Of a DNA stretch of 64,000 nt, positions 19,184 through 59,406 are shown in pieces (position 1 is the first letter of the stretch; every line of letters starts with the position of its first letter). The notes beneath the pieces were generated by a model. That model saw only the letters and a list, made by a program, of their open reading frames with translations, had not been told where the DNA came from and made no database searches. The DNA lies in assembly GCF_011044255.1 (NCBI RefSeq), contig NZ_CP049107.1, positions 3,283,001 to 3,347,000 on the forward strand, read 5' to 3'. This DNA is from Rhizorhabdus phycosphaerae. GTDB lineage: Bacteria > Pseudomonadota > Alphaproteobacteria > Sphingomonadales > Sphingomonadaceae. A program made the translations under genes and the position numbers.

Positions 19184-19375
19184 GGAATAGTCCCCTGAAA
19201 CGCCTGTCTTTTATGCTGCTCGTTATAACCGATGGCGCGCGAGCGTTTAGACAAGAATGCTATTCCGTTCGTAACAATTTCTTCCAGATCGGTTGGGAAG
19301 GCCAGAAAAGGGACGACAAGCCGCCCATGACGCGGCAGAGGACGCCGACGGAAAAACGGGTACGGACAGGATAGA

Positions 19376-23590: not shown

Positions 23591-24283
23591 CTAGGCTGGA
23601 ATTCTGGACCGGGGGTGATCTTCGCGCAATTGAGCAACCTCGGCTATGATCTCAGCGGCTTCAGTCCGTCGCAGCCAGTCCGGGCTGACATCGGCGAAAA
23701 GCACCTTCCCCTGCGTGTCGATCAGGACGACGGCAGGCATCGGCAATTCCCAGCTGTCCGTACCCGTCAAGGCGCCTATCCAGGTCTCGTCATTCTCCGG
23801 CTTGGGTGGGTTGTCGTACGGAACGAAGGTCAGGCCGAAACGACGAGCGAGGCTGTTGCCGCGATCGCTTGCCACGTCGAACCCGAGGCCATGACGGACA
23901 CGGATCTCATCGAGCCCCTTCTCGGGAAGATGCGGGCTCACCGCGACGATGCGGATACCGGCTGCCTCAAGCGCGGGGCGGAGATGCTCGTCATAATGCG
24001 GCAAGGCGATATTACACGCCGGGCAGCCGGCGAAGCGGAAGAAGATCAGCGCCACCGGCCCGTCGCGCGTCAGGCTGGCCAGGTCGACGGCGCCGCCTGT
24101 CGACAGTTGCAGCACGAAAGGCGCGACCGTCTCGCCGGCCTTGACGACCGCCTCGGCATCGAACCGCTCCACCAGCGCCTGCCGCTGCGCGATGTTCGTC
24201 GCCAGCTTGGCAGCGTCCCAGCTGCGCACGCGTTCGGCATGGAGGGCGTCGAATTTCGATTGCAGGGATTGGGACATCGTCAT
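23591..24283 (-). CDS. Peroxiredoxin-like (AhpC/TSA superfamily) protein
   Basis: This 230-residue protein has a thioredoxin fold with RFAGCPACN, placing a C-x-x-C pair where AhpC/TSA-like proteins carry the peroxidatic cysteine. Preceding LTRDGPVALIFF and following LPHYDEHLRPALEAAGIRIVAVSP are typical of the peroxiredoxin-like group related to AhpC/BCP. A helical N-terminal extension of about 60 residues precedes the domain. It probably reduces peroxides or acts as a disulfide reductase in the cytoplasm. The start at 24283 (MTMSQS) has GGAG 4 nt upstream; the ATG at 24277 is also possible. Confidence 0.82.
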   Translation of the reverse strand: MTMSQSLQSKFDALHAERVRSWDAAKLATNIAQRQALVERFDAEAVVKAGETVAPFVLQLSTGGAVDLASLTRDGPVALIFFRFAGCPACNIALPHYDEHLRPALEAAGIRIVAVSPHLPEKGLDEIRVRHGLGFDVASDRGNSLARRFGLTFVPYDNPPKPENDETWIGALTGTDSWELPMPAVVLIDTQGKVLFADVSPDWLRRTEAAEIIAEVAQLREDHPRSRIPA

Positions 24284-24415
24284 CGGCTCCGCACAGGGTT
24301 GGTCTGCGCTGGATAAACGGAAGGTGCAGCCACCAACCAACGAGACTTTGCACGGCTCGATTGAGCCAGCCTCATAGGTTGCGGGGCGGGACCGGCGATG
24401 CCCAGGCTCAACCCC

Positions 24416-25252
24416 TCACAGCGCGCAGATCACCTCGGTGGCAAGGTCTGCGAGCCGTGTCTTGGCCTCGTCGGCATTGCCCGCGCGGATGACGACGCAG
24501 CTGATGTTCGGCAGCCGAGGCAGGCTCTCGACCTGCGCCAAGTCCCCGTCCGCAAGGAACAGATGCGTCCGACAGGTCACGCCCAGGCCGGCCTGCACGG
24601 CGGCGCGCAGCGTAGAGAGATTGGGCGACTCCACCGCGATGCGATAGGGTAGTCCCGCGGCCTCCAGGCTGGCGATTGCCGCATCGCGGAACCGGCACGG
24701 CTTTTCGAGCACGGCGAGCGGCAGAATGGGGCGCTCGGCAAGGCTCTCGTCGCCATACCAGCTCATTGGGGCCACCCGGATGGCGCTGGGTTCGTCGCCG
24801 GGCGCAAAGCCCAGCGCGATGTCGAGCTGGTTGCGCTCGATCAGCCCCTGAAGCTCGGCCGTGCCGGCGACGCGCGCGTAGATCTGCGCGGTGGGATGAA
24901 GCTCGACGAACCGGGCGAGCAGACCGGACAGCAAGGTGTCGGCGAAGTCCTGAACCATCCCGATCCGGATCGGCCCGGAAAAGGTGCCACGGGTCACGGC
25001 CGCCACGGCCTCGTCGTTCAGGCTGAGCACGCGCCGCGCATAATCCAGCAGGAGTTCTCCAGCGCTGGTCAGGGCCAGCTTGCGACCATCGCGTGTGAAC
25101 AGCGCCTGCTGCAGCATATCCTCGAGACGCTTGATCTGAAGGCTCAGCGCGGACTGGGTGACGAACACCTTGTCGGCGGCGCTGAGCATCGAGCCCGAGT
25201 CGACAATGGCGACAAAGCTGCGGAGGAGGTTGGTGGGTAGGTTGACGGCCAT
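24416..25252 (-). CDS. LysR-family transcriptional regulator of the organosulfur cluster (probable)
   Basis: This 278-residue LTTR has the N-terminal winged helix (about 8-65; LLRSFVAIVDSGSMLSAADK, then VTQSALSLQIKRLE) and a two-lobed periplasmic-binding-like effector domain. It is divergent from the SsuC-type permease gene, with a 185-bp shared region containing a CTAT-N7-ATAG site that fits the LysR T-N11-A box. The same site type recurs ahead of the SsuA-type gene. It is therefore the likely local activator, perhaps sensing a sulfur metabolite as CysB and Cbl do. The assignment to these targets is inference. Confidence 0.9.
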   Translation of the reverse strand: MAVNLPTNLLRSFVAIVDSGSMLSAADKVFVTQSALSLQIKRLEDMLQQALFTRDGRKLALTSAGELLLDYARRVLSLNDEAVAAVTRGTFSGPIRIGMVQDFADTLLSGLLARFVELHPTAQIYARVAGTAELQGLIERNQLDIALGFAPGDEPSAIRVAPMSWYGDESLAERPILPLAVLEKPCRFRDAAIASLEAAGLPYRIAVESPNLSTLRAAVQAGLGVTCRTHLFLADGDLAQVESLPRLPNISCVVIRAGNADEAKTRLADLATEVICAL

Positions 25253-25419
25253 GATTTAATATAACTGATTTGATAGAGTATTCGGACGCAGCTTCTCTTT
25301 GCCGCCCGAAAGCGAAGTTTGGGTGTAGGCATAAGCAACTGAAAATAGGATTTTATCTTCACCGTCTGAGCCCCGGACAGGGGATATATGAGCAATCCAA
25401 ATAGGACGGCTCGATAACT

Positions 25420-25434
25420 CTATCATATCGATAG
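25420..25434. promoter_or_regulatory. LysR-type box (T-N11-A) upstream of the permease gene
   Basis: CTATCATATCGATAG is a CTAT-N7-ATAG inverted repeat that contains T-N11-A. It ends 3 nt before the annotated permease ATG, which is very close for an activator site. This could mean the site acts by repression or that the real permease start lies downstream. Confidence 0.5.
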
Positions 25435-25437
25435 TAT

Positions 25438-26238
25438 ATGAGCCTGACACCGTCTTCCATCTCGACATTGCCCCGCTGGCGCACCGTGGCCCGATCGCGG
25501 GCGCTCTCTCCATTGCTGCTCCTGCTGCTGTGGGAGCTCGGCTCACGAACCGGGGCGATCCCCGAACAGACGCTCGCAGCACCGTCGGCGGTGCTGGCCA
25601 CCATGGCGGACATGATCTGGTCCGGCGAATTGCCGCGGAACCTGCTCGTCTCTTTCGGCCGGGCGGCGACGGGACTGGCGATCGGGGTTTCGCTGGGGCT
25701 CGCCCTGGGACTGGCTGCCGGCCTGTCGCGCATCGGCGAGGCGATCGTCGATCCGGTGATGCAGATCAAGCGCACCATTCCCGTGGTCGCGCTCGCGCCG
25801 CTGTTCATCGTCTGGTTCGGGATCGGCGAGACGCCGAAGGTCGCGCTAATCGCCTTCGCAACGCTGTTTCCGGTTTATCTCAATCTCTACAACGGCATTC
25901 GCGGGGTCGATGTGCGACTGCTGGATGCGGCGAAGAGCTTCGGGCTTTCCCGTACCGAGCAGATCGTTCATGTCGTCCTGCCCGCTGCGCTGCCGTCGCT
26001 TCTCGTCGGCTTGCGCTATTCGCTGTCGATCGCGATCATCCTGCTGGTGATCGCCGAGCAGATCAACGCCTCGGCGGGGCTCGGCTTCCTGATCAACAAC
26101 GCGCGCGACTTCATGCGGACCGATATCATCGTCGTCTGCCTGATGGTCTACGCCTTGCTGGGCCTCGCGGCCGATCACGTCATCCGCCTGATCGAACGAC
26201 GCGCGCTCGCCTGGCGCCCCGACATATTGGAGGCCTGA
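25438..26238 (+). CDS. ABC transporter permease, SsuC/TauC-type (sulfonate/organosulfur uptake)
   Basis: This 266-residue inner-membrane protein has about six membrane segments and the binding-protein-dependent transport signature (LLDAAKSFGLSRTEQIVHVV then LPAALPSLLVGLRY), the EAA loop that contacts the ATPase. The sequence is typical of the SsuC/TauC/NitT family. It opens the operon permease - ATPase - thiol dioxygenase - rhodanese - LLM oxygenase. No Shine-Dalgarno precedes the ATG, and family members usually begin nearer the first helix, so the start may be internal (for example the GTG in frame near 25486). Confidence 0.9.
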   Translation: MSLTPSSISTLPRWRTVARSRALSPLLLLLLWELGSRTGAIPEQTLAAPSAVLATMADMIWSGELPRNLLVSFGRAATGLAIGVSLGLALGLAAGLSRIGEAIVDPVMQIKRTIPVVALAPLFIVWFGIGETPKVALIAFATLFPVYLNLYNGIRGVDVRLLDAAKSFGLSRTEQIVHVVLPAALPSLLVGLRYSLSIAIILLVIAEQINASAGLGFLINNARDFMRTDIIVVCLMVYALLGLAADHVIRLIERRALAWRPDILEA

Positions 26239-26239
26239 C

Positions 26240-27049
26240 ATGACCGCTCGCCATGGACTGATGCTCGTATCGCGGGCCCTGAAGGCCACCCTGCCTCCCG
26301 AGGCGGGAGAAGCGGTCGTCCGCCTGCGCGGCTTCACCCGCCGCTATGGTGCCAACACGATCATCGACGGCCTCGATCTCGATATCGCGCCGGGTGAATT
26401 CGTCGCCCTGCTCGGACGCTCGGGCAGCGGCAAGACGACCCTGCTGCGCACGCTCGCCGGACTGGACGACGTCACCGACCAGAATGTCCGCGTTCCGGAA
26501 TCGCGCGCGGTCGTCTTCCAGGATGCACGGCTGCTCCCCTGGAAGAAGGTGTGGCGCAATGTCGCGCTCGGGCTGCGGCGCGGCAATGCGCGCCTGCTCG
26601 CCGAAGAAGCCTTGCAGGAAGTTGGCCTTGGGCACAGGCTGAACGCCTGGCCGCTGACCCTTTCCGGAGGAGAAGCACAGCGCGTCGCGCTGGCCCGGGC
26701 GCTCGTCCGCGAACCCAAGCTGCTGCTGCTCGACGAGCCCTTCGCGGCCGTCGACGCATTGACCCGTATCCGGATGCACCAGTTGGTGCTGGCCTTGTGG
26801 CGGCGCCATCGCCCGGCGGTGATGATGGTAACCCATGACGTCGACGAAGCGATCGCTCTGGCCGATCGCATTCTCGTCCTCGATGCCGGTCGGATCGTCG
26901 CGGAAGAGATCATCGCCGCTCCGCGCGGCGAGCGGACCGCCAGTGTCCGGCCTTTGCGCAGCCGCCTGCTCGGCCATCTCGGCGTCGAGGCGCCCGAGGG
27001 AACCTATGCCGATGCGATCTGGCACAACAGCGAAAGCGACGTGCCATGA
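26240..27049 (+). CDS. ABC transporter ATP-binding protein, SsuB/TauB-type
   Basis: This 269-residue ATPase has Walker A GRSGSGKTT, Q-loop VVFQDARLLPW, signature LSGGEAQRVALARAL, Walker B LLLLDEPFAAVD and the H-loop THDVDEA. The QDxRLLPW loop and the short form are typical of SsuB. It starts 1 bp after the permease stop, with GGAGG 7 nt before the ATG, and its stop overlaps the thiol dioxygenase start by 4 bp (ATGA). It energises import of a sulfur-containing organic compound with the SsuC-type permease and, most likely, the SsuA-type lipoprotein encoded 7 kb away. Confidence 0.93.
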   Translation: MTARHGLMLVSRALKATLPPEAGEAVVRLRGFTRRYGANTIIDGLDLDIAPGEFVALLGRSGSGKTTLLRTLAGLDDVTDQNVRVPESRAVVFQDARLLPWKKVWRNVALGLRRGNARLLAEEALQEVGLGHRLNAWPLTLSGGEAQRVALARALVREPKLLLLDEPFAAVDALTRIRMHQLVLALWRRHRPAVMMVTHDVDEAIALADRILVLDAGRIVAEEIIAAPRGERTASVRPLRSRLLGHLGVEAPEGTYADAIWHNSESDVP

Positions 27050-27639
27050 CCCTCGCGCTCGTCGATGCCGGAAGCGGTGTCGCTCGCCTGCGCGGCTTCA
27101 TCCGGGATTTCGCGGAATTGGGCGGCCCGCCGGGGGCAAGCCATGCCGCGTTGCTGCGCGACCTCGTTGCGCACGACGACTGGCTGCCCGATGCCTACGC
27201 CCAGCCCGACCCCGACCGCTATCGCCAATATCTGCTCCACTGCGACAGCCGCGAGCGCTTTTCGGTCGTTAGCTTCGTCTGGGGGCCGGGCCAGCGCACA
27301 CCGATCCACGATCACCGGACCTGGGGGCTGGTCGGCGTGCTGCGGGGTGCCGAGGTGGTGCGCAACTATGGCTGGTCGGGTGACGGAGCCTTGATCCGCA
27401 CCGGACCTGCGCATCGGTTGGAGCCGGGCGATGTCGAGGCGTTCGGCCCCGATATCGGAGACATACATAGTGTCTCCAACGCCTATGACGACCGGGTCTC
27501 GATCAGCATCCACGTCTATGGCGACAATATCGGCGCCGTGCAGCGGGCGACCTACGATTCCGCCGGACGGCCCAAGCGCTTCATCTCCGGCTACGCCAAC
27601 GACAGCCTTCCAAATCTTTGGGATCTTTCCTCACGATGA
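27046..27639 (+). CDS. Cysteine dioxygenase-family thiol dioxygenase (Q-type, possibly 3-mercaptopropionate dioxygenase)
   Basis: This 197-residue cupin carries the iron ligands H88 and H90 (PIHDHRTWG) and H141 (DIHSVSN), plus the second-sphere H156 and Y158 (SIHVYG). The residue matching the substrate-carboxylate arginine of animal cysteine dioxygenase is Q61 (YRQYLL), the hallmark of bacterial enzymes that prefer 3-mercaptopropionate. The cross-link cysteine position is glycine. It would oxidise a thiol to a sulfinic acid in the cytoplasm. It overlaps the ATPase gene by 4 bp and the rhodanese gene by 4 bp, so it is translationally tied to a sulfonate-type importer. Substrate preference is inference. 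Confidence 0.88.
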   Translation: MTLALVDAGSGVARLRGFIRDFAELGGPPGASHAALLRDLVAHDDWLPDAYAQPDPDRYRQYLLHCDSRERFSVVSFVWGPGQRTPIHDHRTWGLVGVLRGAEVVRNYGWSGDGALIRTGPAHRLEPGDVEAFGPDIGDIHSVSNAYDDRVSISIHVYGDNIGAVQRATYDSAGRPKRFISGYANDSLPNLWDLSSR

Positions 27640-28871
27640 GCCGCCTTTCACCCCACGACGTCCGCACCGCATGGCTGCTGCGCTACGAAATCGCGCTGAT
27701 AGACCTGCGCAGCGAGCATGCGTTCGCGCAGGGCCATCCCCTGTTCGCCGCCCAGATCCCGCCGTCGCGCATCGCAGAGGAGGCACCGATCCGTTTACCG
27801 AGGCGCGACGTGCCGATCGTCCTCTATGACGATGGTGAAGGCCTGGTCGACGATGCGATCGAGCAATTCCGCGCGCTGGGCTTCACGGAGGTTTCGTCGC
27901 TCACGGGCGGGCTGCAGGCCTGGCGGGACGCCGGATACGAACTGTTCCAGGATGTGAACAGCTATTCCAAGGCGTTCGGCGAACTGGTCGAAAGCCGCCG
28001 CCATACCCCGTCGCTCGCAGCCCCCGACGTGCAGGCGCTGATCGACGAAAAGGCCGATATCCGCATCCTCGATGCCAGGCGCTTCGAGGAATATGCGACG
28101 ATGAGCATCCCCACCGGCACCAGTGTGCCCGGCGCCGAACTGGTCGTCGGCGCCCCCATTCTGGCGCCGGATCCCGATACGACGATCATCGTCAACTGCG
28201 CGGGCCGGACCCGCAGCATCATCGGGACGCAGTCGCTTATCAATGCGGGCCTTCCCAACCGCGTCGTGGCGCTGCGCAACGGTACGATCGGGTGGACGCT
28301 GGCAGGCCAGCAACTCGAGAACGGCCAGCAGCGCCGACTGCCGCCTGTAGATCAGGGCGCAGCAGCAGAAGCCCGCGAGCGGGCGCGACAGGTCGCCTAT
28401 CGCGCCGGCGTCAGGCACATCGACACAGCTGCGCTAAAGCGACTGGGCGCCGATGGACGCCGGACGCTCTATCGCTTCGACGTACGGCAGCCGGACGCCT
28501 TTGCCGCCGGACATCTGCCCGGCTTTCGCAACGCGCCGGGTGGGCAGCTCGTCCAGGAAACCGATCATTTCGCGCCGGTGCGCGGCGCGCGGATCGTGCT
28601 TGCCGACGATCTCGGTGCGCGCGCCGACATGAGCGCCTCATGGCTCGCCCAGATGGGGTGGGAGGTTTACGTGCTCGAGAGCGGCTTCGAGGGGCCGCTG
28701 GAAACCGGTGCCAGCGACGCCTTCCCCCCGCGCGGACCCGAGGGGCGATACAAGCGGCCTTATGAGGGCACCGACAATCCGCAAGCCGCGATGCAGGCCT
28801 ATCTCGATTGGGAGTTCGGCCTCGTCGATCAGCTCGAACGCGACGGCACGCACGGTTTTTACGTCATCTGA
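27636..28871 (+). CDS. Multi-domain rhodanese-like sulfurtransferase
   Basis: This 411-residue protein holds at least three rhodanese-like modules (about 5-110, 125-225 and 255-370). Only the middle one has an active-site cysteine in the loop (VNCAGRTRS); the first has LYDDGEG and the third LADDLGAR at the same place, so these are probably structural or regulatory. Rhodaneses move sulfane sulfur to thiol or cyanide acceptors. The start at 27636 gives a 4-bp ATGA overlap with the thiol dioxygenase gene and is favoured over a TTG 18 bp upstream. With the dioxygenase it probably handles sulfur freed from imported thiols or sulfinates. Confidence 0.88.
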   Translation: MSRLSPHDVRTAWLLRYEIALIDLRSEHAFAQGHPLFAAQIPPSRIAEEAPIRLPRRDVPIVLYDDGEGLVDDAIEQFRALGFTEVSSLTGGLQAWRDAGYELFQDVNSYSKAFGELVESRRHTPSLAAPDVQALIDEKADIRILDARRFEEYATMSIPTGTSVPGAELVVGAPILAPDPDTTIIVNCAGRTRSIIGTQSLINAGLPNRVVALRNGTIGWTLAGQQLENGQQRRLPPVDQGAAAEARERARQVAYRAGVRHIDTAALKRLGADGRRTLYRFDVRQPDAFAAGHLPGFRNAPGGQLVQETDHFAPVRGARIVLADDLGARADMSASWLAQMGWEVYVLESGFEGPLETGASDAFPPRGPEGRYKRPYEGTDNPQAAMQAYLDWEFGLVDQLERDGTHGFYVI

Positions 28872-28889
28872 AACGAAAGGAAGTCCGGC

Positions 28890-29978
28890 ATGGGCGTCAA
28901 ATTCATCGGCTATATCGGGTTCAACAATGGCTCTGAAACGCAACAGGCCATCCGGTCCCGCGTGCTCGACAAGGACTATGTGGACGCGGCGGCGCGCGCG
29001 CAGGAGGCCGGCGGCTTCGATCGGGTTCTGATCCCGTTCGGATCGAACAGCCCCGAAAGCCAGATCGTTGCGGCCCATGCGGCGGCCATCACCTCGCGGC
29101 TGGGATTCCTTGTCGCGCATCGGCCTGGCTTCACCCAGCCCACCCTCGCTGCGCGGCAACTCGCGACCCTCGATCAACTGTCCGGCGGACGGGTTGCCGT
29201 TCACATCATCACCGGTGGTGCCGACGAGGAAATGGCCCGCGACGGCGACGTCGGCACGACCAAGTCCGAACGCTATGCCCGCACCGACGAATATCTGACC
29301 GTGTTGCGTCAGGAGCTCAGCGCCTCGCAGCCCTTCGACCATGAGGGGCGCTTCTATCGGGTCCGGCAGGCATTCAGCGCGATCAAACCCGACAATCTGC
29401 CGATCTTTTTCGGCGGTACCTCGGCCGAGGCGATCGATGTCGCCGGGCGGCATGCCGACGTCTACGCCACATGGGGGGAAACGCTGGAGGCGACACGCGA
29501 GGTGGTGCAGCGCGTACGTGCCTCGGCCGCGCGCCATGGCCGCTCGCCCGGCTTCTCGCTCTCGCTGCGGCCGGTGATCGCCGGGACCGAGGAAGAAGCC
29601 TGGAAGAAGGCTGCCGAGATCGTCGAGCAAGTGCGCGAAAGCCGCATCGCCGCAGGGCTTCCGCTCGAAGGTCACACCCCGCCCAATGACGGTGCGCAGA
29701 GGCTGCTGCGTACGGCGTCGGCGCTTCGCCAGGATAAGCGGCTATGGACGGGCGTCGCGGCGCTGACCGGCGCTGCGGGCAATTCGACCGGGCTGGTCGG
29801 AACGCCCGAGCAGGTCGCCGAGGCGCTCCTCGATTATTACGAGATCGGCGTCGACCATTTCCTCATTCGCGGCTTCGATCCGCTCGGAGACGCGGTCGAA
29901 TATGGCAAGGATCTGATTCCCGCGACACGTGCGCTGGTCGCCGCGAGAGATGCGCAGGCGGGCGTGGCTGCCGCCTGA
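28890..29978 (+). CDS. LLM-class flavin monooxygenase, SsuD-like (alkanesulfonate monooxygenase family)
   Basis: This 362-residue protein is a bacterial luciferase-like TIM barrel of the SsuD branch. Signs are the GGFDRVLIPFGSNSPESQ region, HRPGFTQPTLAARQLATLDQ, SGGRVAVHIITGG, and FFGGTSAEAIDVAGRHADVY. SsuD-type enzymes use FMNH2 and oxygen to split a C-S bond, giving aldehyde and sulfite. AAAGGAAG lies about 7 nt before the ATG, 18 bp after the rhodanese stop. No flavin reductase is encoded nearby, so reduced FMN must come from elsewhere. The exact substrate is unknown. Confidence 0.9.
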   Translation: MGVKFIGYIGFNNGSETQQAIRSRVLDKDYVDAAARAQEAGGFDRVLIPFGSNSPESQIVAAHAAAITSRLGFLVAHRPGFTQPTLAARQLATLDQLSGGRVAVHIITGGADEEMARDGDVGTTKSERYARTDEYLTVLRQELSASQPFDHEGRFYRVRQAFSAIKPDNLPIFFGGTSAEAIDVAGRHADVYATWGETLEATREVVQRVRASAARHGRSPGFSLSLRPVIAGTEEEAWKKAAEIVEQVRESRIAAGLPLEGHTPPNDGAQRLLRTASALRQDKRLWTGVAALTGAAGNSTGLVGTPEQVAEALLDYYEIGVDHFLIRGFDPLGDAVEYGKDLIPATRALVAARDAQAGVAAA

Positions 29979-30010
29979 GCAACCGGAGGGCGGAGTGCCG
30001 TGGCTTTGCG

Positions 30011-31384
30011 CTACAGTCCTTCGCCCTCCACCCATTGCGCATTGCACAGCCTGCGGGCGAGCGCCCATGTCTGCACCCGGATATCGGGCACGGCGACAAT
30101 CTCCCAGAAGGCGCTTCGCGTCATGGGCCCGATGATCATCAGGCCGGGATTGGGCCGCCCATCCTCGGCGATCGCCTCCGAGCGGGCGTTGACGTCGATC
30201 CCCAGCTGGAGCGGGTCCGGGCGGATCAGCCCGCGCGCGACCAGATTCCGCAGCAGACGGTCGTCGGTCTTGCGCAGATCGCCTTGCGGCCCGCTGCAGT
30301 TGATGATGCGCGCGACCTCGATCGACCGGATTGCATCCTCGCCGCGCGGTCGCCAGTCGACGATTGCACCCTTCCCGGTCGCCACCGCCGACTGGAGCTT
30401 GCCGGCGACGATCTCCAACTGGCCGCTCCGACGCATGGCCGCGATCCGGGCTGCGACGGCGGGTGCGAGCCGATGACGATGAATGTCCCACCAGGGGCGC
30501 AGATGGCGCAGGAAGCTGCGCCGTTGCCCGGCATCGGCGGCGAGCCACATCGATTGTGTGAACGGTCGCAGGGCATCGACCGCCGCGCGCCAGCCGACGT
30601 GGGTCGCACGCCTACGTACGGCACTGAGAGCCCCTGTTGGGTGCACCGGCGGACGTTCGTTTAGCGGAGCGGCCATCACGCCGTCGGCATGGGCATGGGG
30701 ACTGAGCCCGCGGCGCGACATCGCAACGATCCGGCCGCGATGCCCCCCGGCCTCGAGCAGCAGCACCATGTCGACCATCGTCAGCCCGGTGCCGATGATC
30801 AGGATCGTATCGTCGGGAGACAGGCCAGTGGTGGCGTCTGCTGCCCACGGATCTCCGGCATAGACAGCCGAAGGCAAATCCGCCGCCGCAAGAGGTGTCG
30901 GTTGGTGGGGCGGCAGATTGCCGGGCGCCAGGATGACGGCATCCGCCCTAAGCCGGTCACCCTCGTCGAAGAGCAGATCGAAACCATCGCCCGCGACCGG
31001 GACGACATCCACCACTTCGGCCTGGTGCAGCGCTAGCCGGTCTGGCGAGGCAGCCAGAGTATCGGAGAGCAGATCGCCGAGATAATCGCCGTAGAGGGTC
31101 CGCGGCACGAAGCCGTCCTGCTCGGGATGGCGATCGGCCAGCCAGCGGAGAAAATGATCGGGATCGTCGGGCAGCGCGCTCATATTGGCGGCGCGCACGT
31201 TGAGAAGATGCCCGGGATGTGCGGTCGAATAGGCGACCCCGCGTCCGGCGGTCGACCGTCGTTCGACGAGCGTGGTCCGGGGACCATCGTGCCGCAGCAG
31301 GTTGATCGCCTGCAGGCTGCCGGAAAAGCCTGCGCCGACCACGGCGATATGCTCGTGGCCGGCGCGGTGAGACGCTAATTTCAT
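30011..31384 (-). CDS. FAD/NAD(P)-binding protein
   Basis: This 457-residue flavoprotein has an N-terminal FAD fold (IAVVGAGFSGSLQAI, about 13-27), the GRGVAYSTAHPGHLLNVRAANMSA-type segment typical of the PF13454 NAD_binding_9 family, and a second dinucleotide loop (ILIIGTGLTMVD). The C-terminus contains INCSGPQGDL. The reaction is unknown. It is encoded convergently with the SsuD-like gene and just downstream of an LLM oxygenase on the minus strand (44-bp gap), so it may act as an oxidoreductase or electron donor in organosulfur use. That role is inference. Confidence 0.8.
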   Translation of the reverse strand: MKLASHRAGHEHIAVVGAGFSGSLQAINLLRHDGPRTTLVERRSTAGRGVAYSTAHPGHLLNVRAANMSALPDDPDHFLRWLADRHPEQDGFVPRTLYGDYLGDLLSDTLAASPDRLALHQAEVVDVVPVAGDGFDLLFDEGDRLRADAVILAPGNLPPHQPTPLAAADLPSAVYAGDPWAADATTGLSPDDTILIIGTGLTMVDMVLLLEAGGHRGRIVAMSRRGLSPHAHADGVMAAPLNERPPVHPTGALSAVRRRATHVGWRAAVDALRPFTQSMWLAADAGQRRSFLRHLRPWWDIHRHRLAPAVAARIAAMRRSGQLEIVAGKLQSAVATGKGAIVDWRPRGEDAIRSIEVARIINCSGPQGDLRKTDDRLLRNLVARGLIRPDPLQLGIDVNARSEAIAEDGRPNPGLMIIGPMTRSAFWEIVAVPDIRVQTWALARRLCNAQWVEGEGL

Positions 31385-31428
31385 TCGCCGCTTATACCTG
31401 CCGGCGCTCCCGAGTCAGCGTCGGTCTT

Positions 31429-32760
31429 TCAAGCGGCCGCGCGGTTGCGCCGTGCCGCCGTATACCGGTTCTCGGGAAAAGCCAGGCCGAGATTGTCGCG
31501 GAAGGTTGAGCCCTCATAATCGGCCCGATACAGCCCGCGCGCCTGCAGGATCGGAACGACATGGTCGACGAAAAGCGCCAGCTGGCCCGGCAATGTTTCG
31601 AAGAGCACGAAGCCGTCGGCCGCTTCTTCCTCGAACCATTTCTGCAGTGCATCGGCGACCTTCTCGGGCGTGCCGACGAAGGCGCCGCGCGGCGTGGCGA
31701 TACGCTGCGCGATCTGGCGGAGGGTCAACCCCTCGGCGCGGACCTGTTCCAATATGTGGTTCGACTGGCTCTGATTGCTGTTCCGCCCGAGATGGGCGAC
31801 GTCGGGGAACGGAGCATCGAGATCATAGGCGCCGAAATCATGATCGTCGAACGCACGCGAGATCATGCCGAGCCCGGTCTCGATCGAGTTCAGCGCGGCG
31901 AGTTCCTGATAGCGGGCTTCCGCCGCCTCCTCGGTCAGGCCGACGATCGGGCCGATGCCGGGCAGGACGAACAGCTGGTTCGGATCGCGGCCCAGTTTGC
32001 GTGCGCGGGCTTTGACGTCCCAGTAATAATCCTGCGACTCCTCGATCGTCTGGGCACCGGTGAAGATACAGTCGGCCCGCGAGGCGGCGAAGTCGCGGCC
32101 ATCTTCGGAAGCTCCCGCCTGGAAGATGACCGGCTGGCCTTGTGGCGACCGCTTGATGTTGAGCGGCCCCCGGACCTGGAAGAACTGGCCGTGATGGTCG
32201 AGCCGGCGCAGTTTGTCGGGATCGAGAAAGCGTCCGCTTTCCTTGTCCCCGACATGGGCGTCGTCTTCCCAGCTGTCCCACAGCCCCTGGACCACGTCGA
32301 CATGCTCGGCGGCGATGCGATAGCGGACGTCATGGGCCGGATGCTCGGTCTTGCTGAAATTGGCGGCCGTGTCGCCCAGCCAGGACGTCACCACATTCCA
32401 GCCGGCACGCCCCCCGCTGATATGGTCGAGCGAAGCGAACTGGCGCGCGACATTGAAGGGTTCGGAATAGCTGACCGTCAGCGTCGCGACGAGGCCTATC
32501 CGCGAGGTGGTCGCTGCGAGCGCGGACAGGATGGTGATCGGCTCGAACCGGTTGAGATAATGCGGGCTCGACCGCTCGTTGATCGACAGGCTGTCGGCGA
32601 CGAACAGGAAGTGGAACTTGCCCTGCTCGGCCAGCTCCGCCTGCTCCAGATAGAAGGCAAAGCTGGTGCTGGCGTTCACGTCGCGGTCGGGATGCCGCCA
32701 GTCGCCCCAGCTGCGTCCGACGCCGTGGAGGATCAGGCCCAGTTTGATTGTTCGTGTCAT
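31429..32760 (-). CDS. LLM-class flavin monooxygenase, NtaA/SnaA/DszA-type
   Basis: This 443-residue protein belongs to the nitrilotriacetate monooxygenase/DszA branch of luciferase-like enzymes: N-terminal [57 protein letters not shown] and WNVVTSW are hallmark stretches. Family members cleave C-N or C-S bonds with FMNH2 (nitrilotriacetate, dimethylsulfide, dibenzothiophene sulfone). The start at 32760 is chosen over upstream in-frame ATGs because family proteins begin just before this strand. It is divergent from the TauD gene and lies inside the sulfur island, so C-S bond cleavage is the favoured guess. Confidence 0.9.
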
Positions 32761-32853
32761 TTCGGATCCATCTGTTGAGCTGGCGTCAACATAGTCTCCG
32801 GAGCATTGGCCGACGAATGGCGAATGCAAAAGCAAGGGTTGAGCAACCTCAAT

Positions 32854-32868
32854 ATATCGCCGGAATAG
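32854..32868. promoter_or_regulatory. Degenerate CTAT-N7-ATA(t) site in the LLM/TauD divergent region
   Basis: On the minus strand the site reads CTATTCCGGCGATAT, one mismatch from the CTAT-N7-ATAG form seen at 25420 and 34059. It sits midway between the divergent LLM oxygenase and TauD genes, where a shared LysR site would be expected. Short and degenerate, so tentative. Confidence 0.3.
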
Positions 32869-33002
32869 TGGTGGGATCATAAATCCCATCAGCAGGCGTT
32901 ATACTATTTCATCATTTTACTCGTCCCGACGATATCTCATGAGAAGTTTGCGACAAGTAAGAGGATGATCGCCTTCGCCACAGTACAATGATGGAGAAGA
33001 CG

Positions 33003-33863
33003 ATGTCCCAAGCCCTGCCTGCCGAGCTACTTGCCAAGGAGCCATTCGAGATTCGCCCGTTGCAGCCGACGATCGGCGCAGAGATCCATGGTGTCGATCT
33101 GCGCCAGCCCCTGTCGCCGGAACAGCGCGATGCGCTGAGGCAGGCGGTGCTTCGATACAAAGTCGTCTTCTTCCGCGACCAGCAGCTCGACAATGACAGT
33201 CATGCGGCCTTCGCCGCCAATTTCGCTCCGCTCTACACCCACCCGAGCACGACGCGCGATCCGAAGGTTGCACCGATCCACCGGATCGCGGCGATCGATG
33301 CCGCGAAATATGAGAAGCGCATCCATCGCGACGTGCTGCCGGGCGACGCCTATCACAGCGATACGAGCTGGCGGCTGGTCCCGACCTGGGGCGCGGTGCT
33401 GCGCGCCGTCACCCTGCCCGAGACCGGAGGCGACACGATCTGGGTGGACGCCAACCTCGCCTATGAGGGCCTGTCTTCGGAATTGAAGGAGCGGCTCGAT
33501 CAGCTTCACGTGACCCATGATTTCCGCGAAGCGCTGCACGACGCCGGCCATGATTACCCGATCGTCGCGCATCCCGTCGTCCGCACCCATCGCGAAACCG
33601 GCCAGAAGATACTCTGGGTCAACTTCACCCAAAGACCCCAGATACTCGGCGTCGAGCTTTCCGAGAGCAAGGCGATCCTCGACGAGATATTGCGTCAGTA
33701 TAAGAGGCCGGAGTTTCAGGTACGCTTCTCCTGGCGGCCGGGCTCGGTGGCGTTCTGGGATAACCGGGCTGCGGTTCATTACGCGGTGAAGAATTACGGC
33801 GACTTCCCCCGCCATCTCGAGCGCGTGCTGATCGCGGACGAGCCGCTCTACGCCGACCTCTGA
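33003..33863 (+). CDS. TauD/TfdA-family 2-oxoglutarate/Fe(II) dioxygenase
   Basis: This 286-residue protein shows the TauD pattern: GAEIHGVDLRQPL near the N-terminus, iron ligands in YHSDTSW (H-x-D), the substrate-lid region after it, and the distal histidine in NRAAVHYAV, with the 2-oxoglutarate arginine in HLERVLI. Such enzymes hydroxylate the carbon next to sulfonate or sulfate, releasing sulfite or sulfate. The start at 33003 has GGAGA about 6 nt upstream; an ATG at 32988 would add five residues. It ends before a strong terminator, so it is probably monocistronic. Taurine itself or an alkyl sulfate are both possible substrates. Confidence 0.92.
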   Translation: MSQALPAELLAKEPFEIRPLQPTIGAEIHGVDLRQPLSPEQRDALRQAVLRYKVVFFRDQQLDNDSHAAFAANFAPLYTHPSTTRDPKVAPIHRIAAIDAAKYEKRIHRDVLPGDAYHSDTSWRLVPTWGAVLRAVTLPETGGDTIWVDANLAYEGLSSELKERLDQLHVTHDFREALHDAGHDYPIVAHPVVRTHRETGQKILWVNFTQRPQILGVELSESKAILDEILRQYKRPEFQVRFSWRPGSVAFWDNRAAVHYAVKNYGDFPRHLERVLIADEPLYADL

Positions 33864-33885
33864 TCGACCGGAGCACGTCCAGCGG

Positions 33886-33916
33886 AAGGGCGTCGGTGCG
33901 AACCGGCGCCCTTTTT
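33886..33916 (+). terminator. Rho-independent terminator of the TauD-family gene
   Basis: A 12-bp stem (AAGGGCGTCGGT with ACCGGCGCCCTT, one G-U pair) is capped by a GCGA tetraloop and followed by a T-run. It lies 22 bp after the stop codon. Confidence 0.9.
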
Positions 33917-34058
33917 CATGTGCACATCGGCCATAAAAGCTGTCGTTTCGCTGGGGGAAGAGTTTCTTCATCGCCGCCTTTCGCTGCGAATTATCGCCCT
34001 GTTTTCAAGGGAGGCGGACCCATGATTAGCGCCGCTAATAGACCCTAGAAGTTTTTTT

Positions 34059-34073
34059 CTATTGAAACGATAG
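34059..34073. promoter_or_regulatory. LysR-type box (T-N11-A) upstream of the SsuA-type gene
   Basis: CTATTGAAACGATAG is a CTAT-N7-ATAG inverted repeat with T-N11-A, 23 nt ahead of the ATG of the substrate-binding lipoprotein gene. It shares arm sequence and spacing with the site at 25420-25434. Confidence 0.5.
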
Positions 34074-34096
34074 AGATAAACTGGCGGTTGGCCGAC

Positions 34097-35101
34097 ATGG
34101 AAAACGCTCTCAGAAAATCCGCTTTGCGCCTGCGCCTCCCTTTGCTCCTCGCACTGGCGAGTCTCGGCCTGTCGGCCTGTGGAAAAGGCACGGCGGACGA
34201 TGTGCCGACGCTGCATGTCGGCAGCCAGCGCGGCGGTACGAAGGCGGTCATGCTGGCGAGCGGTGCGCTGGAAGGTGCGAACTACCGGATCGAATGGTCC
34301 GAGTTTGCGGCGGCGCAGCCCCTGCTCGAGGCTATCGGAGCAGGCGCGGTCGATGTCGGCGTAGCGGGCGACGCCCCCTTCATCTTCGCCTATCAGAGCG
34401 GCAGCCCGGTCAAGGCCGTATCGGCGCAATATGCAGTGGAGCGCCCGCGCGGGGCGCTGTCGCTGCTCGTACCGCCCGGCTCGACCGCAAAGACGCTACG
34501 CGACCTGAAGGGCCGGAAGGTGGCAACCACCCGCGGCTCGATCGGCCATTATCTGATCCTGCGGGCACTCCAGCAGGAAGGCCTTCCGGCCGACTGGCTG
34601 ACAATCACCTTCCTCACCCCCGGGGACGCCCGTGCGGCTTTCGTTTCCGGGGCGATCGACGGCTGGGCGACCTGGACGCCCTATGTGAAGCCGGCCATCG
34701 ACGCCGGCGCCCGCAGCATCGTGGACGGTAAGGATCTCGTCCGGGGCTATGGGTTCGACGTTGCCAATGAAAAGGCGATCGGTGCGAAGCGTGCCATCCT
34801 GGCGGACTTCCTGCAGCGCGAAGCGAAAGCGCTCGACTGGGCCAAGCGCAACAAGGACGCATTCGGGCGGCTGCTGGCCCAGGAAACGGGTCTGCCGCTC
34901 GATGTCGCGACCGATTATGCCGACAAGAACGGACGCACCGTGGTCGCGATCGACGACCAGCTGGTCGCGGACCAGCAAAAGGTGATCGACGGATTCCGCG
35001 CTGCCGGCGCCATCAAAGGCGACAGGCCGCTCACGGGCGCGTTCGACCGAAGTTTCGCTCCGGCAGCCGCCGGGGCCGCACAGGATCGCGCCACGCCATG
35101 A
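34097..35101 (+). CDS. ABC transporter substrate-binding lipoprotein, SsuA/TauA-type
   Basis: This 334-residue protein has a lipoprotein signal ending LSAC (lipobox), then a type-2 periplasmic binding fold: LHVGSQRGGTKAVML, FAAAQPLLEAIGAGAVDVGVAGDAPFIFA and LRDLKGRKVATTRGSIGHYL are typical of SsuA. It would capture an organosulfur anion and pass it to the SsuC/SsuB-type transporter, whose genes sit 7-9 kb upstream without a binding protein of their own. The start is the ATG at 34097 (a TTG lies three codons earlier). The unit continues to the TonB receptor gene 60 bp downstream, with a small GCCGGC hairpin between. Confidence 0.92.
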   Translation: MENALRKSALRLRLPLLLALASLGLSACGKGTADDVPTLHVGSQRGGTKAVMLASGALEGANYRIEWSEFAAAQPLLEAIGAGAVDVGVAGDAPFIFAYQSGSPVKAVSAQYAVERPRGALSLLVPPGSTAKTLRDLKGRKVATTRGSIGHYLILRALQQEGLPADWLTITFLTPGDARAAFVSGAIDGWATWTPYVKPAIDAGARSIVDGKDLVRGYGFDVANEKAIGAKRAILADFLQREAKALDWAKRNKDAFGRLLAQETGLPLDVATDYADKNGRTVVAIDDQLVADQQKVIDGFRAAGAIKGDRPLTGAFDRSFAPAAAGAAQDRATP

Positions 35102-35161
35102 GGTCGATCTGATCCACGCCGGCGGAAAGCCGGCCAACCACCAACATCTACGGGGAACGAC

Positions 35162-37699
35162 ATGAAACCGATATTCTATGCTGGCGCCGCCGCGATCGCG
35201 GTCGGCGGATGGGGAAGTCTTGCCTATGCCGCCGAGGCACCGGCCGGTGCCGTTACGCCGGGTGGCGAAGCCGACGGCGCGGATGGAGCGGACGGGGCTA
35301 CGATCGTGGTGACGGGGTCGCGCAGCCGCACGGCGCGCACCGTCGCCGACAGCCCGGTTCCGATCGACGTGATCACGCCCACCGAGCTGCGCGCCACCGG
35401 CGGCGCGGGTCTCAAGGAGGTGCTGGGCAACATCATCCCCTCGCTGACCATGCCCGCGCTCGGCGGCGGCGGCACCTCGGCAAGCGTCCGTCCGATCTCG
35501 ATCCGGGGCCTCTCGGGCGACTATCTGCTCGTGCTCGTAAACGGCAAGCGCCGTCATACGACCTCGCTGATCAACAATCTCTCGCGCATTTCGGGCGGCT
35601 CCACGCCGGTCGACATCGACCTGATTCCCACCAATGCAGTGGGCCGGATCGAGGTGCTGCGTGACGGTGCCGCCGCGCAATATGGTTCGGATGCAATCTC
35701 GGGCGTCATCAATATCATCCTGGACGACCGCCCCGAGGGCGGCGAGTTCACCGCGCAGGCGGGCCAGCTCTACGAGAAAGGGGCGCAGCTGCTTCAGCAG
35801 ACGATCGGCTATGGCACGAAGCTGGGCGACGGCGGTTTCATCCGCTTCGCCATCGAAGGGCGCTATCGCGACCGCGCGAAGAGCTCCGCCGAACCCGTGC
35901 CCAGGCTCTACCCGCTGGTGAACGGCCAGCCCGACCCACGCGAAGCCAATGCCGACCACCTCATCGCCGGCGGCTACGGCCGGTCCAACCGCGACAAGAT
36001 GATCAACAGCTCGCTCAATCTGTCGGTCCCGGTTGGAAGCGCCGACATCTACAGCTTCTCGACGCTCAGCTATCGCGACATCAACGACAAGCGCGGCGCC
36101 TATTTCCCGTCTCCGACAGGCTATGGGGGGCAGGCCAACCCGACCGGCTTCAACGCGCTGCCGCAGCTCTATCCTGCCGGCTTCCAGGCGCGGCGGCGCA
36201 TCTGGGAATGGGATTATCAAACGGCGCTGGGCGTCAAGGGCGAGCTCGCCGGCTGGAACTATGATGTCTCGTCGAGCTACGGCAAGGACCACGTCAAGCT
36301 GGGCGCCGTGGGGACGCTCAATCCGACATTGGGCCCGTCGAGCCCCACCGAGTTTCTGATGGGACGGCAGATCCAGACGCTCTGGGTCAACAATGTCGAC
36401 CTCTCGCATGAATATGACATCGGCTTCGCCGAGCCGCTGACGCTGGCCGTGGGCGCCGAACATCGCTGGGAGCGCTTCCAGAACAAGGCCGGTGAACCCG
36501 ACAGCTATCGCGACGGCGGCTATGTGATCCCCAATGACGGCACCGCCTATGGCCAGCTGTACGGCGGGCGTTCCCCGTCGCCTGGCCTCGTGTCCTTCAC
36601 CGGCACATCGCCGGCCGATGCGACCTCGCTCAGCCGCAACAATCTGGCAGCCTATGTCGACCTGTCGACCAACGTGACAAAGGCATGGTTCGTCGGCGTG
36701 GCCGGCCGTTTCGAACATTATGACGACAGCGCCGGCAACACCGTGTCGGGCAAGATTTCGACGCGCTACGAGATCCTGCCGGGCTTCGCGCTGCGCGGGG
36801 GCATCAACACGGGTTTCCGCGCGCCGTCGCTGGCGCAGACCGGTTTCTCCACGACGCAGAACACGGTGACGATCATTGGCACCCAGCGTGTCAACACGAC
36901 CTCCAAATTCCTGCCCGTCAACAGCGTCGCAGCGCAGGCTTTGGGTGCCCGTGCACTCAAGCCCGAAAAGTCGCTGAACTACACGCTCGGCTTCACCTTC
37001 GAGCGGGAGCCGGCGCGGCTGACCGTGGATGCCTATCAGATCAAGGTCGACGACCGGATCGTGAAGACCGAGTTCCTCGGCACCGCCTCGAACGGGGGCA
37101 GCGCGATCCGTACGATCCTGATCGCAAACGGGGTCACCGGGGTCGACAGCGCGCAGTTCTTCGCCAACGCGATCGACACCCGTACGCGCGGCATCGACGT
37201 GGTGGCGGAATATAATCTGCGGAGCACGGCGCTCGGCAATTTCCGGCTCAACGCGGCATTCAGCTACAACAAGACGAAGATCACCGACATCATCGCCAAT
37301 CCGAGCCAGCTGGCGTCGCTCAACGTTACCCTGTTCGGGCGGCAGGCGCAGCGCGATCTCGTCGTCGCTACGCCGCGGACCAAGCTGGTGCTGACCAACG
37401 ACTGGTCCTCCGGCAGGCTCCACGCACTCGCCCGCCTGACCCGGTTCGGCTCCTACATCGAATCGTCGAACGTCGCGACCGGCGACCGCCGCTTCGGCGC
37501 GAAATGGATCGCCGATCTGGATGTGGGCTATGATGTCAGCGAGAATGTCACGCTGTCGGTCGGCGCGAACAACCTGTTCGACACCTATCCCGACCGCAAC
37601 GGCATCATCGCTGCCGACGGATCGGGCGCCTATGGCAACTTCGCGCCCTTTGGGCTGAGCGGCGGCTTCTATTATGCGCGCGCGAGCGTGACCTTCTGA
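35162..37699 (+). CDS. TonB-dependent receptor of the organosulfur cluster
   Basis: This 845-residue receptor has a signal peptide (MKPIFYAGAAAIAVGGWGSL and on to an AYA site), the TonB-box-like ATIVVTGSR, and a plug with RGLSGDYLLVLVNGKRRHTT and IEVLRDGAAAQYGSDAISGVI. The barrel ends in ARASVTF. It is a paralogue of the receptor at 16697-19183. Its place directly behind the SsuA-type lipoprotein gene implies active outer-membrane uptake of the same compound, pointing to a substrate too large or too scarce for porins. This is inference. Confidence 0.93.
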   Translation: MKPIFYAGAAAIAVGGWGSLAYAAEAPAGAVTPGGEADGADGADGATIVVTGSRSRTARTVADSPVPIDVITPTELRATGGAGLKEVLGNIIPSLTMPALGGGGTSASVRPISIRGLSGDYLLVLVNGKRRHTTSLINNLSRISGGSTPVDIDLIPTNAVGRIEVLRDGAAAQYGSDAISGVINIILDDRPEGGEFTAQAGQLYEKGAQLLQQTIGYGTKLGDGGFIRFAIEGRYRDRAKSSAEPVPRLYPLVNGQPDPREANADHLIAGGYGRSNRDKMINSSLNLSVPVGSADIYSFSTLSYRDINDKRGAYFPSPTGYGGQANPTGFNALPQLYPAGFQARRRIWEWDYQTALGVKGELAGWNYDVSSSYGKDHVKLGAVGTLNPTLGPSSPTEFLMGRQIQTLWVNNVDLSHEYDIGFAEPLTLAVGAEHRWERFQNKAGEPDSYRDGGYVIPNDGTAYGQLYGGRSPSPGLVSFTGTSPADATSLSRNNLAAYVDLSTNVTKAWFVGVAGRFEHYDDSAGNTVSGKISTRYEILPGFALRGGINTGFRAPSLAQTGFSTTQNTVTIIGTQRVNTTSKFLPVNSVAAQALGARALKPEKSLNYTLGFTFEREPARLTVDAYQIKVDDRIVKTEFLGTASNGGSAIRTILIANGVTGVDSAQFFANAIDTRTRGIDVVAEYNLRSTALGNFRLNAAFSYNKTKITDIIANPSQLASLNVTLFGRQAQRDLVVATPRTKLVLTNDWSSGRLHALARLTRFGSYIESSNVATGDRRFGAKWIADLDVGYDVSENVTLSVGANNLFDTYPDRNGIIAADGSGAYGNFAPFGLSGGFYYARASVTF

Positions 37700-58257: not shown

Positions 58258-59406
58258 ATGAAATTCTCGATCATCTATGAAGCGCAGATGGCGGACCCCT
58301 CGCCCGAGTCCGAGGTGCGCTGCTTCAACGAGATCGTCGAGCAGGTCCTGCTCGCCGAGGAAATGGGCTTCGACAATGTCTGGTGCGTCGAACACACGGC
58401 CCTCACCCAATATGCCCATATGTCGGCGCCCGAGACGATGCTCGCCTATCTGGCCGGCAAGACCTCGCGCATCGGCATCGGCCATGGTGTCGTCTGCCTC
58501 CCGCCCGCGATGAACCACCCGGTGAAGGTGGCAGAGCGGATCGCGACGCTGGACATCCTGTCGGGCGGTCGCGTCCATTTCGGCATGGGCAAGGGCGGAA
58601 CCCAGCAGGAAGCCGGCACCTTCGGCTATGACCTGACCGAGCTGCAGCCGATGATCGACGAGTCCATGTATCTGATCCCCAAGATCATGACGCAGGACGA
58701 GATCGAGCATGACGGCAAGTACATCCAGATCCCGCGCCGTCCGATCCATCCGAAGCCGCTGCAGAAGCCGCACCCGCCGCTCTATTATGCCTGCACGCGC
58801 GAAGCGACGCTCGAACTGGCCGGCCGTCGCGGCATCGGTGCGCTCGTTCTCGGCTTCTCGGGCCCCGAGGAAATCGCCCGCAAGAATGCGGTCTACCGCG
58901 AGAATTTCCGCAACCGGAAGATCGAGGACCAGGTCGGCGTCGTTCCGACCGAGCATCTGGCCGCCTTCTGCGCTGCCTGCGTGCTCGACGATCGCGAGGA
59001 AGCCCGCCGCATCGGTCTGCGCGGCCAGCGCTTCTTCGCCGAGGCGATCGCCCATTGGTATCAGGGTGGCCCCAAGCCCTCGATCAACGACCTGTCCGCC
59101 GAGGAGCAGGAAGCTGCGCTCAGCAAGGGCAAGGAAGCCATCGTCACCTATCTGTCGGAAGAGAAGATCGAGATCGGCGACGAGCACACCAGCAACTATT
59201 CGGTCGCGCAGGACGCATATGGCAACGCCGACGACTGCGTCCGCTATGTGACGCGGTTGCAGGATGCGGGCGCGGACGAGGTGTTGTTCCTGTTCCAGAT
59301 GGGCACCATCCCGCACGAATCGATCCTCGAGACGATCCGCAACATCGGCAACAAGGTCATCCCGCACTTCCGCGACCAGCAGAAGACCGCGATCGCCGCG
59401 GAATGA
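58258..59406 (+). CDS. LLM-class flavin-dependent monooxygenase
   Basis: This 382-residue luciferase-like TIM-barrel protein has MKFSIIYEAQ, GFDNVWCVEHT, KTSRIGIGHGVVCLP, HPVKVAERIATLDILSGGRV and the GMGKGGTQQE loop. Such enzymes use FMNH2 or F420H2. The partner reductase is not nearby. AGGAGAG precedes the ATG by about 8 nt. Its stop overlaps the SDR start (ATGA), so the two are co-translated. It resembles monooxygenases of terpenoid and cyclic-ketone pathways, but the substrate is unknown. Confidence 0.88.
   Translation: MKFSIIYEAQMADPSPESEVRCFNEIVEQVLLAEEMGFDNVWCVEHTALTQYAHMSAPETMLAYLAGKTSRIGIGHGVVCLPPAMNHPVKVAERIATLDILSGGRVHFGMGKGGTQQEAGTFGYDLTELQPMIDESMYLIPKIMTQDEIEHDGKYIQIPRRPIHPKPLQKPHPPLYYACTREATLELAGRRGIGALVLGFSGPEEIARKNAVYRENFRNRKIEDQVGVVPTEHLAAFCAACVLDDREEARRIGLRGQRFFAEAIAHWYQGGPKPSINDLSAEEQEAALSKGKEAIVTYLSEEKIEIGDEHTSNYSVAQDAYGNADDCVRYVTRLQDAGADEVLFLFQMGTIPHESILETIRNIGNKVIPHFRDQQKTAIAAE

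Follow-up and report, generated by a model that had tools for sequence, protein, structure and literature searches.

Two Parts of a Predicted ssu-Type Sulfur-Scavenging Operon in Rhizorhabdus phycosphaerae Share a Candidate Two-Part Promoter Signature

Gene Organization of the Locus

The 64,000-nucleotide stretch of Rhizorhabdus phycosphaerae analysed here (NZ_CP049107.1, 3,283,001–3,347,000; hereafter the window, in whose numbering all positions are given) contains a block of genes related to the ssu alkanesulfonate system, which we describe as a predicted sphingomonad sulfur-scavenging operon in two parts. The host genome is a single contig of 4.33 Mb, and the nearest loci are those of sphingomonads. 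According to the open reading frame (ORF) calls and family matches, the first part is a plus-strand run of five tightly spaced genes, coding for an SsuC-like permease (ssuC, 25438–26238), an SsuB-like ATPase (ssuB, 26240–27049), a Gln-type thiol dioxygenase of the 3-mercaptopropionate dioxygenase type (mdo, 27046–27639), a three-domain rhodanese (rhod, from an ATG at 27636 to 28871), and an SsuD-like luciferase-like monooxygenase (ssuD, 28890–29978). The ssuB and mdo genes overlap by 4 bp, as do mdo and rhod, and 18 bp separate rhod from ssuD. A LysR-type regulator (24416–25252, minus strand; PF00126/PF03466) is divergent from ssuC. The second part, also on the plus strand, consists of an SsuA-family binding protein with a lipoprotein-like signal (ssuA, 34088–35101, the ATG at 34097 being the likely start) and a TonB-dependent receptor (35162–37699; PF00593, PF07715) whose gene starts 60 bp past ssuA.

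Between the two parts, a minus-strand pair faces ssuD. Its first gene codes for an NtaA-family, YtnJ-like luciferase-like monooxygenase (dszA, 31429–32889) and its second for a FAD/NAD(P)-binding protein (fad, 30011–31384; PF13454, 4.9e-34). A TauD-like Fe/2-oxoglutarate dioxygenase gene (tauD, 32988–33863, plus strand; PF02668) is directed away from dszA. The initial annotation, made from the sequence alone, had listed these eleven gene types as one block, and all of them are located where it placed them. It had also counted four other transcription units between ssuCB and ssuA, which is too many, because mdo, rhod, and ssuD are continuous with ssuB through the short overlaps and gap given above, and only the dszA–fad pair and tauD intervene.

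Next to lysR lies a peroxiredoxin-like gene of the AhpC/TSA type (prx, 23591–24340, minus strand; PF00578, 1.7e-14), whose true start may be an inner ATG at about 24277. Judged by its position, it is a twelfth member of the conserved neighborhood, since prx adjoins lysR on the same strand in 16 of the 46 mdo-containing loci defined below. A 975-codon open frame runs antisense over the receptor gene (34496–37423, minus strand) and is probably a by-product of high GC content.

Protein Assignments

The SsuA protein exceeds the TIGR01728 subfamily cut-off (183.5 vs 163.5 bits) and no other protein of the genome matches the SsuA-family model. The permease (PF00528; NF008470, 223 bits, cut-off 347) and the ATPase (NF008420, 235 bits, cut-off 395) do not reach their equivalog cut-offs, each model still being the best-scoring NCBIfam family for its protein. 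The SsuD-like protein matches the solved structures 7jv3 and 1m41, and its best NCBIfam matches are the two alkanesulfonate monooxygenase models, both below cut-off (TIGR03565, 228 vs 518 bits). Likewise, the TauD-like protein has TauD as its best NCBIfam family and scores under the taurine dioxygenase cut-off (NF007104, 219 vs 313 bits). The dszA product lies well above the NtaA/DmoA subfamily cut-off (TIGR03860, 549 vs 280 bits). Among solved structures, it is closest to YtnJ (538 bits over 428 residues), followed by the nitrilotriacetate-type enzyme 3sdo (487), 7e36_B (323), and DszA (298), so that its nearest solved relative is YtnJ and not the dibenzothiophene sulfone monooxygenase. The three desulfonation chemistries that had been proposed for the block are not shown, given the sub-cut-off scores of the SsuD- and TauD-like proteins and the closer relation of the supposed DszA-type enzyme to YtnJ.

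The YtnJ protein is presumably the same as CmoJ. Enzymes related to the YtnJ type are described, in the available portions of two reports, as cleaving the C–S bond of S-alkyl cysteine derivatives (PMC10863075, PMC9706529). What distinguishes the window enzyme from YtnJ/MoxC and the NtaA family is its setting in an inverted pair with a FAD protein. The luciferase-like family has 15 matching stretches in the host genome, and one further member lies at 58309–59277 (plus strand), 20 kb downstream of the block.

The thiol dioxygenase matches the solved bacterial 3-mercaptopropionate dioxygenases 3uss/4tlf (5.6e-70) and 6xb9 (2.9e-66). In the alignment to the 3uss chain, it retains the Gln (62/63), the His triad, the Ser155-His157-Tyr159 motif, and the equivalent of Arg168, and it has a Gly at what we take to be the position of the cysteine of cysteine dioxygenase. 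Judged by the residues checked, the mdo product is a predicted Gln-type 3-mercaptopropionate dioxygenase, which differs from the 3uss/4tlf and 6xb9 enzymes in its setting beside a sulfonate importer. The roles of the Gln, the His residues, Tyr159, and Arg168 in 3-mercaptopropionate dioxygenase are treated in the accessible part of PMC8050391, and the Ser-His-Tyr motif in that of PMC10966181.

The rhodanese (PF00581, three stretches) matches 1yt8 at 1.2e-158 and has a single conserved Cys, present in 87 of 87 aligned rows, at position 194 when the ORF is counted from the TTG at 27618. In other Pseudomonadota, mdo and rhod are direct neighbors in 6 of the 11 stretches (10 genomes), some of them near ssuD, ssuA, or dszA relatives. 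In the same-genus genome G174 (G and L numbers denote genomes and loci), the two genes lie on a different contig from the ssu operon. Because of this adjacency in the wider phylum and the separate contig in G174, we read mdo–rhod as a module of its own. According to the accessible text of PMC5373536, a rhodanese-domain protein of Variovorax is discussed in sulfite detoxification beside mercaptosuccinate dioxygenase, and in Advenella a rhodanese gene is near the mercaptosuccinate dioxygenase gene. The three-domain rhodanese is also widespread in L076–L116 and L118, mostly Bradyrhizobium, with no thiol dioxygenase match or ssu operon in the fetched stretch.

Conservation of Gene Order

Within the family, mdo is present in 16 of 199 genomes at E ≤ 0.001 (host included), 10 of them at 1e-50 or better. 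Relatives of the locus were collected by scanning contigs with the rhodanese, keeping the best 80 of more than 559 loci, and adding nine stretches; L018 was dropped because it duplicates the locus in L039. The resulting set has 46 loci with mdo and 42 without. In the former, mdo is followed by rhod in 43 of 46. The SsuB–thiol dioxygenase–rhodanese order, for which the initial annotation had suggested a synteny search, recurs as ssuC-ssuB-mdo-rhod in 36 and is continued by ssuD in 32. The divergent lysR-ssuC arrangement is found in 27 loci, and ssuA followed by the TonB receptor in 22, with receptor identities of 63–78% in 15 and 38–40% in 7. Large replicons of Novosphingobium and Sphingobium also carry the operon. 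In G174, an unbroken ssuC-ssuB-ssuD-ssuA-receptor series is present, its receptor being 81% identical, and two family members (L020 and L021) have the unbroken operon with mdo-rhod inside. As far as gene order can tell, the core ssuC-ssuB-mdo-rhod-ssuD...ssuA-receptor is a recurrent sphingomonad operon.

A whole-order search for stronger receptor relatives returned proteins of 43–48% identity with no ssu matches in the four fetched stretches, and these were excluded as parts of the same system. Chance clustering of the genes is ruled out, since the same order recurs across genomes. The idea of a recent foreign island is unsupported, as the GC content of the block is within the range of the window and the one tRNA detected, at 37996, is outside the block.

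The Insert between ssuD and ssuA

In relatives, the slot that here holds the inverted dszA–fad pair and tauD is empty in 18 of the 46 mdo loci and contains, on the same strand, tauD in 5, dszA-tauD in 5, and dszA in 2; in L070, a receptor and tauD lie in line within it. In all 31 relatives with ssuA downstream of ssuD, the two genes share a strand. No opposite-strand match to the twelve query proteins, which are what this comparison covers, occurs in the slot of these 31 loci, the gap of L051 and L056 being unread. The rule is less clean in L059 and L117, which have no ssuD and carry dszA and ssuA relatives (42–51%) opposite to ssuCB, downstream of rhod, and a distant ssuA (28–30%) is on the opposite strand in four more loci. 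The separation of ssuA from ssuCB, which had been called unusual, is so among these relatives, but it is not unique.

Trees were built after matches of less than 180 bits or 200 residues had been dropped. The window dszA protein groups with seven copies from outside the slot (8 rows, 96/98), and its sister group (93/94) consists of eight Novosphingobium copies from within the operon (8 rows, 100/99). The placements of dszA and fad give no date for the insert, and that of tauD is weakly supported. The simplest reading is that the slot accepts varied oxygenase genes and that this lineage received an inverted dszA–fad pair, a direction of change that we infer.

No direct repeats flanking the insert were found, and a promoter and terminator scan gave no excess over shuffles. 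A 23-nt inverted pair (21/23 matching), at 24262–24284 and 32996–33018, spans the positions at which prx and tauD probably start, and 11 of 12 shuffles contained no such pair. It was rejected as the trace of an inversion, as the prx-lysR-ssuC order is the same as in relatives; the pair also suggests that both genes start at an inner ATG reading MSQ. A second inverted pair of like quality, at 29796/31655, lies in coding DNA.

Control Sites

Alignment of the lysR–ssuC gap of the window with those of 27 relatives gave two conserved elements. Box 1 is a 23-bp element with the dyad core CTAyyr-N3-yrrTAG, present in two copies in most loci, and Box 2 has the dyad TATnAGC/GCTnATA. The two elements conform to T-N11-A, the usual geometry of LysR sites. 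The Box 1 position weight matrix (PWM) was built from 47 sites in 25 loci with the window excluded, three of 50 candidate boxes unlike the rest having been dropped, and the Box 2 PWM from the 27 relatives.

At ssuC, Box 2 (25385–25407, plus strand) is the best match of the window at 24.3, compared with a shuffle top of 16.9. It is followed by Box 1 (25417–25439, plus strand), whose core, CTATCATATCGATAG at 25420–25434, is an exact dyad and which scores 5.7 on the plus strand and 9.6 on the minus strand (25415). A weak second Box 1 on the lysR side (25257–25281) scores 7.5 (plus, 25259) and 7.4 (minus, 25257), within the shuffle range, and has the position of the upstream copy in relatives. Before ssuA, the same two elements appear with the strand and order seen at ssuC: Box 2 at 34022–34044 (plus strand, 14.5) and Box 1 at 34056–34078 (plus strand), with the exact dyad core CTATTGAAACGATAG at 34059–34073. 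The latter is the best Box 1 site of the 64 kb, and its score of 19.0 is above the tops of 20 of 20 shuffles (14.9, then 10.5). The remaining Box 1 sites of at least 4 in the window are 25257/25259 and 25415/25417 in the lysR–ssuC gap, 34054 (the ssuA site on the other strand), 19276, and 9137; apart from the ssuA site, all are inside the shuffle range. Box 2 has a third window match before prx (24358, 10.8).

In the 46 mdo loci there are 90 Box 1 sites of at least 14, of which 82 lie within 350 bp of the start of one of the twelve genes (training sites included). The 875 kb of the 42 loci that lack mdo contain none, and 2 occur when 40 loci are shuffled. We then define as a composite a Box 2 followed by a Box 1 on the same strand 26–42 bp on, at low thresholds. 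Exactly two places in the window have this arrangement, before ssuC (32 bp) and before ssuA (34 bp), compared with 0 in 30 shuffled windows and 0 in the 42 loci without mdo; in the mdo loci, 33 of 36 such pairs precede ssuC. In the whole 4.33-Mb genome, the exact Box 1 dyad with its flanks occurs at two places, again before ssuC and ssuA, and a reversed control pattern at one.

The best new site with one mismatch (PWM 15.1) is found before the serine acetyltransferase gene of the host, and the same-genus genomes G174 and G114 have an exact Box 1 dyad there. The island LysR has orthologues at 65–71% identity in 5 of 7 related genomes searched, and none at E ≤ 1e-40 in the other 2. Because G114 and G031, which also has the Box 1 dyad, show no close orthologue of this LysR, the findings suggest a different regulator for Box 1.

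Several observations weigh against the explanation favored below. In 4 of 10 shuffles the top score is higher than that of the ssuA Box 2, the ssuC Box 1 does not rise above the shuffle range, and Box 2 alone is unspecific, with 10 matches of at least 14 in the 42 loci without mdo. The exact-dyad pattern, the spacing range of the composite, and its thresholds were fixed after the window sites had been seen, and the shuffles take no account of AT-rich promoters. When one mismatch is allowed, the host genome gives 14 dyad matches, fewer than the 45 of the control. In relatives, dyads also occur near genes with no evident sulfur role, and the dyad is absent from G140 and G075. Box 1 is no more than 20 nt away from the ssuA start, and at ssuC it extends over the annotated start, a placement that would suit an operator no less than an activator. 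The dszA, fad, and tauD genes have no Box 1 in the window, the sole Box 2 match near the dszA start being weak (9.6), and membership of the inserted genes in the regulon through Box 1 is unsupported. Finally, there is no flavin reductase among the island genes; the genome has five FMN_red matches and one Flavin_Reduct match elsewhere.

Some further Box 1 sites were noted. The dyad at serine acetyltransferase stands between that gene and the molybdate genes modE/modA in three genomes of the genus (host C1:1182922 = L138; L153/L166; L169), and a link of cysteine synthesis and molybdate uptake with the sulfur regulon is possible. In the related genomes of L149 and L155, exact dyads lie upstream of other TonB receptor genes, possibly further sulfur receptors. 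The window itself encodes another TonB receptor from the family of the island receptor (16697–19183, minus strand; 41% identical to it), and the weak site at 19276 upstream of it scores 7.8, within the shuffle range.

Proposed Mechanism and Alternatives

The explanation that we favor, and consider probable with some reserve, is that of a sphingomonad ssu-type sulfur-scavenging operon that was split by an insert and whose halves are co-driven through a duplicate composite promoter. For the substrates, the activities, and the order in which the enzymes act, we infer the following scheme. The TonB receptor would take an organosulfur anion, present at low concentration, through the outer membrane, and SsuA would pass it to the SsuCB importer. 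The SsuD-like monooxygenase, and possibly the TauD-like enzyme too, would then free sulfite. Mdo would oxidize a carboxylated thiol to a sulfinate, which can also end as sulfite, and the rhodanese may move sulfane sulfur, form thiosulfate, or handle sulfite. The inverted YtnJ-like/FAD pair and tauD would have entered the ssuD–ssuA slot, severing ssuA and the receptor from the main promoter. Because the ssuA-receptor half has a second composite signature, with Box 1 about 33 bp past Box 2 as before ssuC, both halves are probably still driven together by sulfur supply and, on these shared predicted control sites, probably remain one regulon. The claim of a single scavenging system with outer-membrane uptake, already made in the initial annotation, gains support from the ssuA-receptor synteny, the sole SsuA match, and the shared boxes.

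A more specific proposal, which we put forward tentatively and would not yet call probable, is that a two-site code (two T-N11-A dyads about 33 bp apart) marks sphingomonad organosulfur genes. Box 1 would be the site of a global sulfur regulator and Box 2 that of the local LysR, and a whole copy of the two sites would have kept the severed ssuA-receptor pair in the regulon. The assignment of Box 1 is suggested by its presence before serine acetyltransferase and in two same-genus genomes with no close LysR orthologue.

The block could instead consist of two separate neighbors, namely a sulfonate importer accompanied by Mdo and the rhodanese and, inside it, an independent salvage pair for thioethers of the S-alkyl cysteine type (dszA–fad) together with tauD. 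In L060 and L062, such pairs are located away from the operon. The tree places the window dszA among copies that lie outside the slot and not among the in-operon Novosphingobium ones, the pair has no Box 1, and the closest solved structure is YtnJ. However, related dszA and tauD genes are in line in exactly this slot in 12 of the 46 loci. Moreover, Box 1 precedes the fad match by 58–61 bp in five loci (L058, L060, L062, L066, and L068), so that a dszA–fad pair can share the regulon, and we regard two unconnected systems as rather doubtful. A similar question concerns Mdo and the rhodanese, which might serve in thiol or sulfite detoxification and merely share the operon, with no part in scavenging. 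The presence of mdo-rhod in some stretches with no ssu matches (L022 and L123) and the discussion of the Variovorax protein cited above are consistent with this. The 4-bp overlap of mdo with ssuB and its position between ssuB and ssuD in 32 of the 46 loci argue against this, and a detoxification role in place of scavenging appears to us improbable, if not strongly so.

We have also considered that ssuA and the receptor were never in the ssuCB operon in this lineage, the two units being ancestral and the contiguous form having arisen elsewhere. The receptor has its own Box 1 in several loci (12 sites near the receptor gene), separate promoters are common, and ssuA is opposite to the ssuCB strand in L059 and L117. 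This is set against the unbroken series of the same-genus G174, with its 81% identical receptor, and of L020 and L021, with mdo-rhod inside, which makes an ancestral separation quite unlikely in our judgment.

Relation to Known Systems

The alkanesulfonate operon of E. coli is SsuEADCB, under LysR-type control. The present locus resembles it in bringing together SsuA, SsuB, SsuC, and an SsuD-like monooxygenase of the FMNH2 type under LysR-type control; it differs in having no flavin reductase and in including an outer-membrane receptor, a thiol dioxygenase, and a rhodanese, with SsuD-, SsuB-, and SsuC-like proteins that score under the equivalog cut-offs.

Sulfonates make up much of the carbon-bonded sulfur in the environment, as stated in the accessible text of PMC5443232, where an ssuABCD set in rhizosphere Novosphingobium has already been published. 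This is the same set of importer and monooxygenase in close relatives, strain AP12 being our L040; the thiol dioxygenase, the rhodanese, the receptor, and the promoter motif are not named as parts of the operon in that portion of the paper. In the titles and opening abstract lines of the open-access papers searched, we found no description of an operon with mdo, rhodanese, and receptor together, nor of the boxes, nor of how sphingomonads move sulfonates through the outer membrane. New here is the two-part promoter signature before ssuC and ssuA, found with matrices from relatives only. The conserved ssuA-receptor pair offers a concrete candidate for an outer-membrane receptor in sphingomonads. 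With the control boxes, the sulfur regulon of an entire bacterial family becomes accessible at low cost, and the split operon provides a natural experiment on the ways in which bacteria hold separated genes under one control.

According to deposited annotation, permease, ATPase, 3-mercaptopropionate or cysteine dioxygenase, and rhodanese genes follow in the same order in Sphingobium sp. TomTYG65 (plasmid pTomTYG65a) and Azospirillum sp. B510. The former differs from the window in that ssuA comes directly after ssuD and is followed by tauD, a hypothetical gene, and the receptor, with no inverted pair. The B510 locus differs in having several binding proteins and no receptor in the stretch shown. 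Near its dioxygenase lies a gene annotated as malonic semialdehyde reductase, which, going by that annotation alone, would fit an oxidative desulfonation of 3-sulfo- or 3-sulfinopropionate.

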